A stretch of DNA of 64,000 nucleotides from Nitrospira sp. (GTDB lineage Bacteria; Nitrospirota; Nitrospiria; Nitrospirales; Nitrospiraceae), in the NCBI GenBank assembly GCA_022226935.1, contig CP092081.1, positions 978,734-1,042,733 on the forward strand. The letters are read 5' to 3'. The position numbers were made by a program, and so were the translations under genes. The stretch's first letter is position 1. Every line of letters begins with the position of its first letter. Shown one piece after another: positions 11,653 to 19,003 of the stretch. The notes under the pieces were generated by a model. That model worked only from the letters and a program-made list of their open reading frames with translations. It did no database searches and was not told the origin of the DNA.

Positions 11653-13227
11653 GTGCCGACTCGCCCTGTCATCTCGCGCTGGATCACGTGGATGGGTGGT
11701 ATCGCACTCGTCCTGGTGACGGCAGTGCTACTCGCCGCAACAATCGCGGATGAGCCGGTGAGGAAGTATGTCGAAGACAAGGCCAATGCCTCGCTCAACG
11801 TGTATACGCTGCGCATCGGCAAGCTGGACCTGCATCCGCTGACCCTGTCGCTCGATCTGGAAAACGTGACCCTCATCCAGAAGCGCCATCCCGACCCTCC
11901 GATGGCCCACATTCCGAAATGGCATGTCGGCATTCAGTTAGGAGGACTGTTGACCGGAAAACTGGTGAGCGCCCATCGCATCGACGGCCCCTCCGCCGAG
12001 TTGACGCGTCCCCAAGCCAAGAGGGGGATCAAGGAAACTCCTCCGAGCGGTTGGCAGGACATCGTGCGAACCCTCTTTCCCCTGCGGATCAGTGAATTGA
12101 AGGTCGAGCAGGCGCAGGTCACGTACTACGATCATTCCAAGGCTCAGCCGGTGAAACTCACTGACGTGCAGTTCGAAGCCGGCGAGATCAGCAACCGCGG
12201 CGGCGAAGGCCAGGAATATCCTACACCCGTCAAAATGGAAGCACGGCTCCCGCAGGGAGGCCGCATTACAGCCAAGGGTCATGCCAATGTGCTGACCAAA
12301 CCATTGCCGGCCTTCACTGTCGATTTCAATCTTGACGACATCGCGCTCCAGGATTTCGCCGGTCTCGCCGCTGGCTATGACGTGCAGCTCGATCAGGGCA
12401 AGATCACAGCCAATGGCCACGCAGAATACGCCCCTTGGAAACACGTGGCGGATGTGCGGGACATCCGTCTCGAAGGAGTGAGGGCGGACTATGTCTATCG
12501 GCGGCGCCCCACAGATGAGGCGCGCCGGGCGGAAGCTGTGGCTGTGGCTAAGAAAGCGAAGGACAATTCTCTTCTCGTCGTGAATGTGAAACAGGGAAAA
12601 GTCGTGGGCTGCGAATTCGGCTTTGTGAACAAGGCCGCCACCCCTCATTACCGCGTGTTTGTCGGGGAGGTCAATGCAGATCTGAATAATTTCACGACCA
12701 GGTTGCGCGAATCGGCAGGGGGCGAGGCGGTAGTCAAAGCGACGGGGCGATTCATGGGCACGGGACGCAGCGTCATGACCGGCACGTTTCGGCCTGAAAC
12801 GCCCTTCCCTGATTTCGACGTCGGAGTCCAAATCGTTAAAACCGAACTGAAATCGTTCAACGATGTGCTGCGGGCCTACACCGACTTCGACGTGCATCAA
12901 GGCAACCTTTCCGTGTTCAGCGAACTCTCCGTCCGCCACAAACAGGTCTCTGGTTATCTCAAGCCGATATTCAAGGATGTCGAGGTCTATGACCCCGAGC
13001 AAGATACTGAGAAAGCGCGGACAAACAAAGTGTTCGAATCGGTTATCAGCGACATCGTGGAGCTGCTGAATAATCCAAGCCAGGATCAGGTTGCGGCGGA
13101 CGCGGGCATCACCAGTCCGGTAACAAACCCCCCTGCAGAGACCTGGCAAGTCATGAGCACCCTGATACAAAACGCCTTCTTTAAAGCCATTCTCCCGGGT
13201 CTGGAAAAAGAGCAAGGCAAAGCATGA
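11653..13227 (+). CDS. DUF748 domain envelope protein
   Basis: This 524-residue protein starts at GTG with GGAG 8 nt upstream. An N-terminal hydrophobic anchor (about residues 10-30) is followed by long beta-rich AsmA-like repeats: LRIGKLDLHPLTLSLDLENVTL, FPLRISELKVEQAQVTYYD, PAFTVDFNLDDIALQDF and SGYLKPIFKDVEVYDPEQD. These are typical of DUF748 proteins, which are anchored in the inner membrane and span the periplasm; relatives of AsmA are linked to outer-membrane lipid homeostasis. It is followed 33 bp later by topoisomerase IB and is divergent from the RidA lipoprotein. Substrate unknown. Confidence 0.78.
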   Translation: MPTRPVISRWITWMGGIALVLVTAVLLAATIADEPVRKYVEDKANASLNVYTLRIGKLDLHPLTLSLDLENVTLIQKRHPDPPMAHIPKWHVGIQLGGLLTGKLVSAHRIDGPSAELTRPQAKRGIKETPPSGWQDIVRTLFPLRISELKVEQAQVTYYDHSKAQPVKLTDVQFEAGEISNRGGEGQEYPTPVKMEARLPQGGRITAKGHANVLTKPLPAFTVDFNLDDIALQDFAGLAAGYDVQLDQGKITANGHAEYAPWKHVADVRDIRLEGVRADYVYRRRPTDEARRAEAVAVAKKAKDNSLLVVNVKQGKVVGCEFGFVNKAATPHYRVFVGEVNADLNNFTTRLRESAGGEAVVKATGRFMGTGRSVMTGTFRPETPFPDFDVGVQIVKTELKSFNDVLRAYTDFDVHQGNLSVFSELSVRHKQVSGYLKPIFKDVEVYDPEQDTEKARTNKVFESVISDIVELLNNPSQDQVAADAGITSPVTNPPAETWQVMSTLIQNAFFKAILPGLEKEQGKA

Positions 13228-13260
13228 CTGCAGGTCTCGGATGACGCCCACCCATTCACG

Positions 13261-14358
13261 ATGCGAATACTCTCTTCGAAAGATGTCGTGAGGTCGGCCC
13301 GCACGGCCGGTCTGCGATATGTGAGCGAGGGCGTGGGAGGATTCAGGCGAGTCCTGAAACGCGGAGCCAATGCCTACCTCAACGCCTCGGGAGTGCCGAT
13401 TCGCGATGAACGCCACCTTCGCCGCATCCGCGCGCTCGTCATTCCCCCGGCTTGGAGAGACGTATGGATCTGTGACGATCCCAACGGCCATCTGCAGGCG
13501 ACCGGGCGTGATGCGAGAGGACGAAAACAGTATCGCTATCACCAACGCTGGCGTGAAGTGCGGGAGGAAAACAAATATGGCCGGCTGCTCGCGTTCGCCA
13601 GGCTGTTGCCGCGTATCCGGAAGCGGATCGATCGCGACCTCGCGTTGCCCGGTCTGCCGCGAGAAAAGATGTTAGCCACGGTCGTGCGCTTGCTCGAAAC
13701 GACGCTGATCCGAATCGGCAATGAAGAATATGCCAAGACCAACAATTCTTTTGGCCTGACGACGATGCGCGACCGTCATGCCCGGGTCGAGGGGGCGAGG
13801 GTCAAGTTCGAATTTCGAGGTAAAAGCGGGGTGAAACATAGGGTGGATCTCACGGACCGCCGGTTGGCCCGCATCGTTCGACAAAGCCGGGATCTGCCGG
13901 GGTTCGAGCTTTTTCAATATGTCGATGCGGAGGGCGTTCGACATGGCATCGACGCCGGAGACGTCAATGACTATCTCCGGCGCGTAGCGGGAGAGGAGTG
14001 TACGGCGAAGGACTTCCGCACCTGGGCCGGGACGGTGCTGGCAGCGAAGGCCGTGCAAGAATGCTGCCCAATCGGCTCGGCGGCGCAGGCCAAACGGAAT
14101 GTCGCGGCCGCTCTTGAGACGGTGGCGAAGCGACTCGGCAATACCACGACCATTTGCCGAAAATGTTATGTGCATCCGGAAATCGTGCAGGCCTATCTGG
14201 AGGGAGCGCTGTCTCGTTCGTTGACGACGAGGCTCAGGCGGCCGTTTGCGCGCCTGGCAGGATGCTTATCGCCGGATGAGGCTGCCGTATTGGCTTGTCT
14301 CGAACGTCGCCTCGGGCGGAGGTCCGGACGGGCCGTAGGATTGCGCTCATCCGCCTAA
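13261..14358 (+). CDS. DNA topoisomerase IB (poxvirus-like)
   Basis: This 365-residue enzyme relaxes supercoils by transient 3'-phosphotyrosyl nicking. The visible residues align with the vaccinia enzyme: R151 (IRIGNEEY), K188 (FRGKSG), R253 (FRTWAG), N294 at the position of the catalytic histidine (usual in bacterial copies) and the nucleophile Y303 in CRKCYVHPE. The N-terminal domain (GVPIRDERHLRRIRALVIPPAW, residues 44-65) is also characteristic. Length is normal for the bacterial family. All catalytic positions appear intact, so it should be active. It is 12 bp upstream of the hpnR reading frame. Confidence 0.93.
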   Translation: MRILSSKDVVRSARTAGLRYVSEGVGGFRRVLKRGANAYLNASGVPIRDERHLRRIRALVIPPAWRDVWICDDPNGHLQATGRDARGRKQYRYHQRWREVREENKYGRLLAFARLLPRIRKRIDRDLALPGLPREKMLATVVRLLETTLIRIGNEEYAKTNNSFGLTTMRDRHARVEGARVKFEFRGKSGVKHRVDLTDRRLARIVRQSRDLPGFELFQYVDAEGVRHGIDAGDVNDYLRRVAGEECTAKDFRTWAGTVLAAKAVQECCPIGSAAQAKRNVAAALETVAKRLGNTTTICRKCYVHPEIVQAYLEGALSRSLTTRLRRPFARLAGCLSPDEAAVLACLERRLGRRSGRAVGLRSSA

Positions 14359-14370
14359 TGGAGGAAGGAC

Positions 14371-15941
14371 ATGCGTGTTCTTGCCGTGCATCCCGGCCCC
14401 TTGATGTATACCAAGATCTATCTCCGGCTGGAGCCGCTTGGACTGGAATTGGTGGCTGAAGGACTGAGGCAAGCCGGTCATGACGTTCGGCTGATCGACT
14501 TACAAGTGGAATCGCAGGAGGCCTATATGGCTGTCTTGCGGGAATGGAAGCCGGATGTCGTGGCGTTCTCCTGTAATTGCCTCGCGAATGTTCCGGAAAT
14601 CGTCGATCTCGCAAAAGTGACGAAAGCGATCCTCCGCACCTCTCTGGTGTGTGTGGGAGGGCATAGCGCGTCCTTTATTGCGTCCCAGCTCCTCAGTCAT
14701 GCCACCGGCACGATCGATTGCGTCCTGCGCGGAGAAGGCGAAGAAGCGATGCGGATGCTGCTGGAGGCAGCGGCTGAGGACCGGACGGCTCTTGGGTCCG
14801 TGCCCGGATGCGTGACCCTTGAGGGCGACGGGCCGCCGGCGAGATTTGTGCACCGTCTGGATGACATACAGCCGGCAAGAGATCTGCTGCGGCACCGCCG
14901 GAAATATTTCATCGGGGTGTTGGATCCCTGCGCGTCGATCGAGTTCACCAGGGGCTGCCCTTGGGACTGCTCTTTTTGCAGCGCCTGGACGTTTTACGGG
15001 CGAAGTCATCGAGCAAGGAGTTGCAAGGCGATCGTAGAGGACCTCAAACGGATTGCCGAACCCGGTGTCTTTCTCGTAGACGATGTCGCGTTCATCCAAG
15101 CCCAACAGGGACCGCGATCGGGGAGGCCATCGCTTCTCACGGCATTCGCAAACAATACTATTTGGAAACCCGGGGGGATATGCTGCTCCGTAATAAAGAG
15201 GTCTTTCGACTGTGGACGAAGTTGGGCCTCAAATACATGTTCCTCGGGATCGAGGCCATCGATGCGGATGGCCTCAGCAAACATCGCAAGCGCATCTCGT
15301 TGGGCAAAAACTTTGAAGCGCTGGAATTTGCGAGAACGCTGGGCATCACCGTCGCGATCAATCTGATTGCCGACCCCGATTGGGACCGCGAGCGGTTTGA
15401 GACGATTCGCCGGTGGTGCCTGGAGATTCCGGAAATCGTCAACATCAGCGTCAATACACCCTATCCCGGGACGGAAAGCTGGCACACCGAGACGCGGCCG
15501 ATCCTGACGCGCGACTACCGGCTTTTCGATATCCAGCATGCGGTCATGCCGACGCGACTCCCGTTGCCGGAGTTCTATGGCGAGTTGGTCAAGACACAGC
15601 AGGTTCTGAATACGAAACATCTGGGATGGGCGGCTCTGAAAGGGACCGTGAAACTCGCGGCTGGGCACTTATTACGAGGGCAAACCAACTTCGTAAAGAT
15701 GCTCTGGAAGTTCAACAGCGTCTATGATCCCACGCTCCAATTGGCCGATCATCTGAAACCGGTGGCCTATCTGATGGATTTGCCGGAGAAATCGAATGGG
15801 TTTGGTCATAACCGCGTCATCCCGATTCACCGCGTGAAGAGCCGGGCGTACCAGCAACTGGATGAGGAGACGATCAGCTTCGTCAATCGGAGCAGCGGCC
15901 AGGCGATCGCGATGGAACAGCGTTCGTCCGAGAACGGCTAG
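14371..15941 (+). pseudogene. hpnR: Hopanoid C-3 methylase HpnR homologue, frameshifted
   Basis: HpnR is a B12-binding radical SAM methyltransferase that adds the C-3 methyl group to hopanoids. The N-terminal part (14371 to about 15112) has the cobalamin-binding domain (start MRVLAVHPGPLMYTKIYL, then VCVGGHSASF) and the radical SAM cluster motif CPWDCSFC (about residues 196-203). Near 15110-15113, just after codons for DDVAFIQAQQG, one base appears to be missing: the conserved continuation AIGEAIASHGIRKQYYLETRGD is found in the -1 frame from 15114 and runs to the normal C-terminus at 15941. Read together the two frames give a full-length protein of about 520 residues. A true mutation or an assembly error are both possible. 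Confidence 0.85.
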
Positions 15942-16012
15942 AGCAGAGGGATCGCAGACCGTGAGTCATCACTCCTCTCCGGTTACTCAGCGGACGAGGC
16001 TGTCGTTCTCGC

Positions 16013-16513
16013 TCACTGTTTGCTGTGGGCAAAGGCGTGTGCTGCCTGAGTCCCAGTCCATTCGCGATGTGCAATCCGTCTCGCGATCAAGTGATCGAGG
16101 GACCAGGCCCCACCGCCTTCCACAAGAAGCGCCAGGCTCATCCCAATGACCAGCAGATGATATTCAAATCCTTCTCCCTGCTGTTGGCCGAACCAATTCA
16201 TGAAGAAGCCGTGAGGCCAATGCACCATGGTAATGGCTCCCAGCATGATGAGAACATAGCTGGCGGCCACGAAGCGGGTGAGAAATCCGGCTAATAGACT
16301 GAGGCTGCCGATCGACTCGCCGATGATGACGAGAAAAGCGATGAGCCAGGGAAGCCCCATGGTAGTGGTGAAAAATCCGATCGTGCCCGTGTAGCCTTGC
16401 CCCCCAAACCAGCCCAAGAGTTTCTGCGCTCCGTGGGCGAAGATCACCATCGCCAGCATTACACGCAGGATGAGCATTCCTACAGAGGCGTGAGTGGTAA
16501 AGAGCCGGTGCAT
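16013..16513 (-). CDS. DoxX family membrane protein
   Basis: The start at 16513 is chosen because GAGG lies 6 nt upstream. The 166-residue protein has four hydrophobic segments and DoxX motifs: LRVMLAMVIFAHGAQKLLGWFGGQGYTGTIGFF near the N-terminus, IGESIGSLSLLAGFLTRFVA in the middle and HWPHGFFMNWFGQQQGEGFEYHLL before the last helix. DoxX-like proteins are small inner-membrane proteins tied loosely to redox or thiosulfate metabolism; a specific role cannot be assigned. It is preceded by another small membrane-protein gene on the same strand. Confidence 0.85.
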   Translation of the reverse strand: MHRLFTTHASVGMLILRVMLAMVIFAHGAQKLLGWFGGQGYTGTIGFFTTTMGLPWLIAFLVIIGESIGSLSLLAGFLTRFVAASYVLIMLGAITMVHWPHGFFMNWFGQQQGEGFEYHLLVIGMSLALLVEGGGAWSLDHLIARRIAHREWTGTQAAHAFAHSKQ

Positions 16514-16551
16514 GCGCGACCTCAACATCCAACAAGAGCTGTGGGCCGTCC

Positions 16552-16920
16552 TTATGGCGAGAGCAATCGATCTCGTATAAAGCTGAGATGAAATCCTCTG
16601 AACGGCGTCGTTACGATCCGCCTCACGATAAGCGGCATGATGAGAAAGGCACTGATCAGTGTGGTGAAAGCGATTGGCAACACAGCCACCCATAATGTCG
16701 GAGGCGTCCGTGTGAGTTCGGGAAACAGAAAGAGCAAGACGACATTTCCGGCGAACATGAGCAGGACGAAAGTTCCGACACCGCCCCAGAGGAAGGGCCA
16801 GCCTAGCCGCAACAATTCGTCATACCTCGGCTGGTTCTCGTTCATGGCAGAAGGGGAGATTGCCGCCGATCTTTCGTCTTCCCTGATGAGGCCGGTATTT
16901 GATTGGCTCTCGATCGTCAT
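16552..16920 (-). CDS. Small two-helix membrane protein of unknown function
   Basis: The frame is open from 16947; ATG codons at 16947, 16920 and 16845 are possible starts and none has a convincing Shine-Dalgarno. The common part has a hydrophilic N-terminus (NENQPRYDELLRLGWPF) followed by two hydrophobic segments (GGVGTFVLLMFAGNVVLLFLF and LWVAVLPIAFTTLISAFLIM) and a basic C-terminus. It lies 38 bp upstream of the DoxX gene in the same direction and is probably co-transcribed with it. No family was recognised. Confidence 0.5.
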   Translation of the reverse strand: MTIESQSNTGLIREDERSAAISPSAMNENQPRYDELLRLGWPFLWGGVGTFVLLMFAGNVVLLFLFPELTRTPPTLWVAVLPIAFTTLISAFLIMPLIVRRIVTTPFRGFHLSFIRDRLLSP

Positions 16921-16965
16921 GTCGCGACCATACAGAACAGAGTCCATCTGCAGCGCCGTGAAGTC

Positions 16966-18219
16966 ATGCTGTTCATTATGGACCTCCGCAACGTCGATCC
17001 GACACTAGGCGTAACCCTCGTCAGTACGCCTTGCGGCTCTCTTCCGGGTCCGGCCGTCGACGGGTATTCAGTTCTTCTGGCCGATGACAATGCAGACATG
17101 CGGGACTACGTCATGCGCCTGCTCAGCGGGCAGTACCACGTGGAAGCGGTGCCCGACGGGGCTTCGGCGCTACGATCCGCGCTGACTCATCCTCCGGATC
17201 TGGTGCTCGCCGACATCATGATGCCCGGCATGGACGGCCTGGATCTGCTCCGCGCCCTCCGGGCTGAACCCACGACGCGCAACATTCCGATCATTCTGCT
17301 GTCCGCGCGGGCGGGGGAGGAGTCAAAGGTTCAAGGGCTCGAGACCGGTGCGGATGACTATCTTGTGAAGCCATTTGCCTCCCGTGAGCTGTTGGCTCGT
17401 GTGAAGACTCACCTTGAGCTGGCGCGCGCGCGTCGTCGTGTGACCATGGAACTGGGCTCGCGCTTGGCAGAATTGGAACAGGCCAATACGTCTATCCGCG
17501 AGGGCCGGCTTGCGGCATTGAACATTCTTGAGGATGCCGTCGAGGCCCGGGACCGGGCCGAGGGCTTGAACCGGAAGCTGCAACAAGAAATCACCGACCG
17601 CTGCAAAGCCGAATCCGCCCGCAAGGAAAGTGAAGCGCGACTTGCCTCCGACCTCGCCGGCATGCGGCGCCTACACGAATTGCATACAAGAATCGCGACG
17701 GAACACAATGTGAAGACAGCGCTCGCTAAGATTCTGGCTGCCGCCTGCGACCTCACGAGGACTCAGCGGGGCTGCGTGCAGCTTGTCGGTGACGACGGGG
17801 AGCGACTTGAGACGTTGGTGTGGCACGGTTACGCAGATGACAGCCCTGTTCTCCAACATGGTTCCTTCCCCTGGTTACAACCTGTCAGTGATCCGTCTCG
17901 ACAGTGTCTGCAGCGCCTCATCATCCAAGATGTCGCGGGCTGTGCGCCGCTCGCCGGAACCGAGGAACGTGACATCATGCTGGCCGAAGGGGTCTAGGCC
18001 ATGCAGTCAACGCCGCTGATCAGCCGCAGCGGTCGATTAGTGGGTCTACTCAGCACACAATTCGATACACCGCATCGCCCGACCGACGATGAGTTGAAGA
18101 TCATCGATATGCTGGCGTGGACGGCGACAGAATTCATTAACCGTGACAGAACCGATCAGCCGCGGCGAACAAAGAGCGGCGGATCTCGTCGAAAACGATC
18201 GACGAGAGAGAGGGACTGA
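16966..18219 (+). pseudogene. Response regulator with coiled coil and GAF domain, interrupted by an in-frame TAG
   Basis: A receiver domain (VLLADDNADMRDYV, phospho-acceptor D in VLADIMMPGMDG, signature K in DDYLVKPF) is followed by a long helical linker (RLAELEQANTSIREGRLAALNILEDAVEARDRAE) and a GAF domain. The GAF domain is cut by TAG at 17995-17997 (AEGV-stop-AMQSTPLISRSGRLVGLLST); the same frame continues to 18219 with the rest of the domain (RPTDDELKIIDMLAWTATEFINR). The joined product would be about 417 residues. The stop probably replaced an arginine or glutamine codon. The start is uncertain; 16966 is the ATG before MLFIMDLRN. No kinase or output domain is present. Either a recent nonsense mutation or a two-piece gene. 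Confidence 0.75.
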
Positions 18220-18261
18220 TCAGTTGTGCGCCATGGCGAAAGCCACGAGGCCGGAGACCGG

Positions 18262-18555
18262 ATGAAGGTGACGGTCGATCGACAGTTGGTTGCGGCTGAA
18301 TGGCAGGAGCGAGGCTTCAGTTGTGATCTTTGGGTTGATCCGCCGGGGCAAGTATGGGAGGATTACCGCCACGCAACCGATGAATTGGTCATGCCGGTCG
18401 CGGGCCGGTTGGAACTGGAATTCGGAGGGGAGGCTGTGCAACCCGCTCTGGGAGAGGAAGTTCTGATTCCTGCCGGTGTGCTTCACACCGGCAGAAACAT
18501 CGGAGGAACGACTGCTCAGTGGCTCTACGGGTACAGGCGGGCGCAGACAGGCTGA
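18262..18555 (+). CDS. Cupin domain protein
   Basis: This small (97-residue) protein is one cupin barrel: the first motif region HATDELVMPVAGRLELEFGG and second LGEEVLIPAGVLHTGRNIG carry histidine and glutamate residues in the usual metal-binding places. A GTG at 18226 would add 12 residues. Single-domain cupins of this size often bind a metal and act as dioxygenases, isomerases or sensors; no substrate can be inferred. It follows the broken response regulator and precedes the ACT-domain gene by 29 bp. Confidence 0.75.
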   Translation: MKVTVDRQLVAAEWQERGFSCDLWVDPPGQVWEDYRHATDELVMPVAGRLELEFGGEAVQPALGEEVLIPAGVLHTGRNIGGTTAQWLYGYRRAQTG

Positions 18556-18584
18556 TGGACTGACTCACGGAGGGAGAGGAGCCG

Positions 18585-18995
18585 ATGCCGACAACGACGC
18601 AATTTGTGGTGAGTGGACAGAGCAAGCCCGGTGTGCTGGCCTCAGTGGCGGCGGTGCTGGGGGCCGCAGGGGTCAACATCAAGGCCTTTTCCGCGCCGGA
18701 AGTGACAGGGCCGGGAAAGTTGCGGTTGATCGTGGCGGATGTCGATGCCGCGCGCATCGCGCTGAGAAAATCGAAAATCAAATTCCGTGAAGAGACCGCC
18801 CTGATTCTGAGCTTGGAAAACAAGCCGGGCGCGTTGAAGCAAGTGGCCGATTCGCTCACCCGGGCGCGCATCAATGTCAAGTGCGGATACTGCACCCCAT
18901 CGCGGGAAGGTAAACGCGCCATTGTCGTGCTGACCGTTTCGAACACCACCAAAGCCCTTGGGGTGCTGCGCACCCATTCACTCGACGAATTTTAA
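18585..18995 (+). CDS. Tandem ACT-domain protein
   Basis: The 136-residue protein is made of two ACT domains: residues about 5-65 (FVVSGQSKPGVLASVAAVLGAAGVNIKAFSA) and 70-130 (ALILSLENKPGALKQVADSLTRARINVKCGYCTP). The 'kPGvL/aL...l..a.iNi' pattern is the ACT signature, which binds amino acids as an allosteric ligand. Standing alone without an enzyme domain, it may be a regulatory subunit or amino-acid sensor. GGAGGGAGAGGAG precedes the ATG. The RlpA gene starts 9 bp after its stop, so the two may be co-transcribed. Confidence 0.85.
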   Translation: MPTTTQFVVSGQSKPGVLASVAAVLGAAGVNIKAFSAPEVTGPGKLRLIVADVDAARIALRKSKIKFREETALILSLENKPGALKQVADSLTRARINVKCGYCTPSREGKRAIVVLTVSNTTKALGVLRTHSLDEF

Positions 18996-19003
18996 TTCTA
19001 CGC

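Follow-up and report, generated by a model that had tools for sequence, protein, structure and literature searches.

A hopanoid C-3 methylase gene (hpnR) broken by a one-base frameshift was found in the 64,000-nucleotide stretch of Nitrospira DNA analysed here (the window, G000:C1:978734-1042733 of a single-contig genome of 4,229,538 bases), and this gene is likely a redundant copy that was inactivated recently. It would be an ordinary pseudogene, a redundant hpnR broken by one base, and in this genus the gene comes and goes. 3-Methylhopanes are read as biomarkers, and the absence or breakage of hpnR is used to predict which organisms produce them. In a literature search on broken, lost or multiple hpnR genes, none of the matches listed mentioned hpnR.

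The broken copy and its reading frames

The features of the window around the broken gene are the following:

11653 to 13227, + strand: conserved upstream neighbour by which the syntenic site can be recognised in relatives (DUF748 is a hand label with no family search behind it)
13261 to 14358, + strand: topoisomerase IB (TopIB) gene, directly upstream of hpnR
14371 to 15366, + strand: ORF matching positions 1-247 of TIGR04367 with 420.7 bits
14371 to 15111, + strand: 5' half of hpnR, frame 1, with the B12-binding domain and the CxxxCxxC motif
14961 to 15941, + strand: ORF matching positions 245-488 of TIGR04367 with 420.4 bits
15109 to 15113, + strand: the break, five bases versus six in intact orthologues
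15114 to 15941, + strand: 3' half of hpnR, second frame, up to the stop (TIGR04367 positions 245-488)
15115 to 15366, + strand: out-of-frame tail of the first ORF past the break, about 83 amino acids and then a stop
16013 to 16693, - strand: DoxX-family gene, downstream of hpnR

Membership of the HpnR family was defined by the equivalog cut-off of TIGR04367 (650 bits). In the profile search, this profile of 490 positions is fully spanned by the window between 14371 and 15941, across two frames; either half alone stays below the cut-off and no single ORF of the window passes it. The two halves together cover positions 1-488, which bears out the gene identity proposed in the earlier note, and the HpnR matches that carry organism names are mostly from Nitrospira. 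In the 5' half, the family search placed the B12-binding domain PF02310 at residues 14-130, and the radical SAM motif CxxxCxxC is found at residue 196.

Conservation in frame 1 ends at the glycine codon 15109-15111, and the second frame takes over from 15114, one base out. This is the single-base break with the conserved sequence picking up at 15114 that had been described before, and both the coordinates and the description are correct. Codon usage agrees, with scores of +0.14 in the own frame versus -0.02 in the best other frame for the first part of hpnR, and +0.27 versus +0.02 for the second, while the tail of the first ORF past the break scores -0.47 in its own frame versus +0.33 in another. 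This split-frame signal, with its switch in codon usage, is far above chance. The frame is disrupted relative to intact orthologues, one of the features expected of a pseudogene.

The syntenic site in relatives and hpnR across the genus

Comparison with the hpnR of sister genomes, which the earlier note had proposed as a check, showed syntenic orthologues in G013 and G011, each in one frame and each behind the orthologue of the 11653 gene. The 3' half of the broken gene (15114 to 15941) has 84% amino acid identity to both. Nitrospira sp. CR1.2 has the same HpnR protein as G011, and further genes are common to G011 and the window, namely NrdJ upstream and cupin, ACT, RlpA, CBS and LigA downstream (all hand labels, with a family search behind cupin alone). 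In an HpnR tree of 93 rows, a quick tree with SH-aLRT support only, the broken copy clusters with G013 and G011 (100) and the intact copy of the same genome clusters with the HpnR of G004 (97).

The TopIB gene is present at the syntenic site in G024, G017 and G027, and G014 retains part of it along with the 11653 gene. All that remains of hpnR between TopIB and DoxX in G024 is a relic, a match of 88% to the start of hpnR (49 query bases, E = 9e-9) that extends, with the end of TopIB included, to 85% over 85 positions (E = 1.4e-18). A search of the syntenic site in G017 and G027 found TopIB with no recognisable hpnR behind it, and there is no hpnR above the cut-off anywhere in either genome. 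Judging by gene order and similarity, the broken copy is the old syntenic hpnR, which is intact in two relatives, reduced to a relic of about 49 bp in a third and absent in others, the sites inspected being those of G011, G013, G014, G017, G024 and G027. As a separate observation, the orthologue of the 11653 gene in G014 (L068, contig C39, 457-2009) was matched as two overlapping pieces, and perhaps it carries a frame break too.

Concerning the genus as a whole, hpnR above the cut-off is found in 11 of the 29 genomes, at 13 places, with two copies each in G020 and G021. The alaS tree covers 24 of the 29 genomes (G002, G007, G009, G019 and G025 gave no full gene and are not included, and G015 is partial), and it places G000 in a clade of 11 genomes, G024 among them, with support of 100/100. 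Within this clade, hpnR passes the cut-off only in G000, G011 and G013, and the other eight genomes have none above it, G024 with its relic. The distribution of hpnR in the genus is patchy, with up to two copies per genome, and the comparison suggests both gains and losses. The presence of hpnR in marine Nitrospira has already been published, according to PMC10579370. It should also be noted, as a side observation on the same set of genomes, that rpoB (TIGR02013) gave no match in G000 versus a match in 23 of the 29; the gene may lie in a stretch outside the sequence searched.

The nature of the break

The one-base difference could be a sequencing or assembly error in an organism that has two working hpnR copies, as the two copies above the cut-off in both G020 and G021 would allow; such an error is rather unlikely. 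It would fit the single lesion in 1.57 kb, as no other disabling lesion was seen in the broken copy, and also the signature of purifying selection on its branch (dN/dS of 0.063 versus 0.126 and 0.096 in the two intact orthologues, with dS near saturation). Substitutions at conserved columns number seven in the broken copy versus six and four in the intact orthologues, and these counts give no clear sign of decay. Because the branch dN/dS is low and the conserved-column counts are similar, the break would be either very young or an error. However, there is no homopolymer longer than three at the break, the nearest run being GGGG at 15120, and the broken gene is the same one that relatives have lost at that site.

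The frequency of frame switches in the genome was estimated by comparing 400 kb each of G000 and G017, using orthologous and coding-supported ORFs. Going from G017 to G000, there were 12 candidates in 258 ORFs, and three had support in each of the four parts; by eye, two of these three were judged spurious, and the third looks like a genuine gene whose break lies in a proline-rich repeat. The reverse comparison gave four candidates in 251 ORFs, none fully supported, and a looser first survey had given 16 candidates one way and 17 the other, most of them spurious ORFs. Since only three of the 258 ORFs were flagged and one is credible, G000 is not riddled with frameshifts. The loss of the syntenic copy in relatives, together with this scarcity of other frame switches, favours a real lesion. 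On balance, a real lesion is preferred to an error at about two to one. The credible case of the survey deserves a mention of its own: it is a proline-rich repeat protein (G000:C1:856067-857784, in L154) whose frame switches inside the proline tract relative to G017, and this could be a slippage lesion, an assembly error or a phase-variable site.

Productive recoding, in which the ribosome would slip by -1 at the break and make a full-length HpnR, had been raised as an alternative in the earlier note and is very improbable. The frames overlap at the break, both are apparently constrained, and two relaxed slippery-like heptamers with one mismatch each are seen at 15105 and 15108, one overlapping the site and the other starting within it. 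Nevertheless, a strict X XXY YYZ heptamer is absent from the frame overlap (14961-15366), and since the syntenic orthologues of G013 and G011 and all other aligned hpnR rows are in one frame, there is no conserved recoding site. Recoding was rejected on these two grounds. An Rfam search of positions 12000-19000 gave no match, and near the broken hpnR no RNA element or promoter stood above chance.

The second hpnR and the fate of C-3 methylation

The reading that this lineage has "just lost" 3-methylhopanoid production, which the earlier note proposed in case the break is real, has the broken window copy in its favour, as well as the lack of 3-methyl BHPDs in some hpnR carriers (PMC12583986), but it is scarcely credible, since the same genome holds an intact second hpnR together with genes for squalene-hopene cyclase and HpnH. 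This second hpnR was found by a TIGR04367 search of the own genome (C1:1967425-1968888, 913 bits, no internal stop), and both shc (774 bits) and hpnH (550 bits) are above their cut-offs. With these three genes in place, the gene for 3-methylhopanoids is not lost from the lineage, and a loss of production fails at the gene level. The same paper indicates that possession of hpnR is no guarantee of the product.

A recent duplication of one gene was considered as the origin of the two copies and ruled out: their residue identity is 70.9% and 71.2% over the two halves (about 71%), and the HpnR tree places them on separate branches. The intact copy lies on an island (L052:7570-14313, equal to G000:C1:1965569-1972312) with the following genes, the sigma-54 activator being directly upstream of hpnR:

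L052:7570-9165: sigma-54 activator
L052:9426-11015: intact hpnR
L052:11162-11845: HAD hydrolase
L052:12152-12844: unknown gene
L052:12838-14313: SthA-like transhydrogenase

The flanks of the island (L052:4000-6936 and 16122-16500) are 9.2 kb apart in G000, about 1.3 kb in G014 and about 1.0 kb in G018. The sigma-54, HAD and SthA genes also form a group that lacks hpnR in G016, G028 and G020, and in G004 hpnR sits between a sigma-54 match and an SthA match. Because of this island comparison and the HpnR tree, the intact hpnR was probably acquired horizontally.

Returning to the redundant, recently inactivated copy as the preferred reading, the syntenic hpnR would have been inherited within a Nitrospira subclade and would then have lost one base at 15109-15113. 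Its product would consist of the B12 domain, half of the radical-SAM domain and about 83 out-of-frame residues, and it is very probably inactive. A C-3 methylase gene is kept as the second, distantly related hpnR on the island, whose origin is probably horizontal, and the constraint relaxed by this second copy is a likely reason why the first could break. However, loss of the broken copy does not need the second one as its cause, because eight of the 11 genomes of the clade have no hpnR above the cut-off. As a more tentative possibility, C-3 methylation could be passing from the old, vertically inherited hpnR to the horizontally acquired one directly behind a sigma-54 activator; the old copy would then be seen shortly after its inactivation, and the output of 3-methylhopanoids would become conditional.

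Regarding the use of gene absence in lipid-biomarker work, the lesson is a modest one: a single broken hpnR says little about the capacity for 3-methylhopanoids. G000 is also a genome in which an older and a newer hpnR copy can be compared.

Among the closest known relatives of the broken gene are the syntenic hpnR of G013 and G011, with the same upstream (11653) gene and 78-84% amino acid identity per half; unlike the broken copy, they are in one frame, and the upstream TopIB gene was not found there. The second hpnR of G000 (C1:1967425-1968888) and the hpnR of G004 belong, like the broken copy, to the HpnR family and, unlike it, are intact. The second G000 copy differs further from the broken one in its 71% identity, in its place on another branch and in its island with a sigma-54 regulator.
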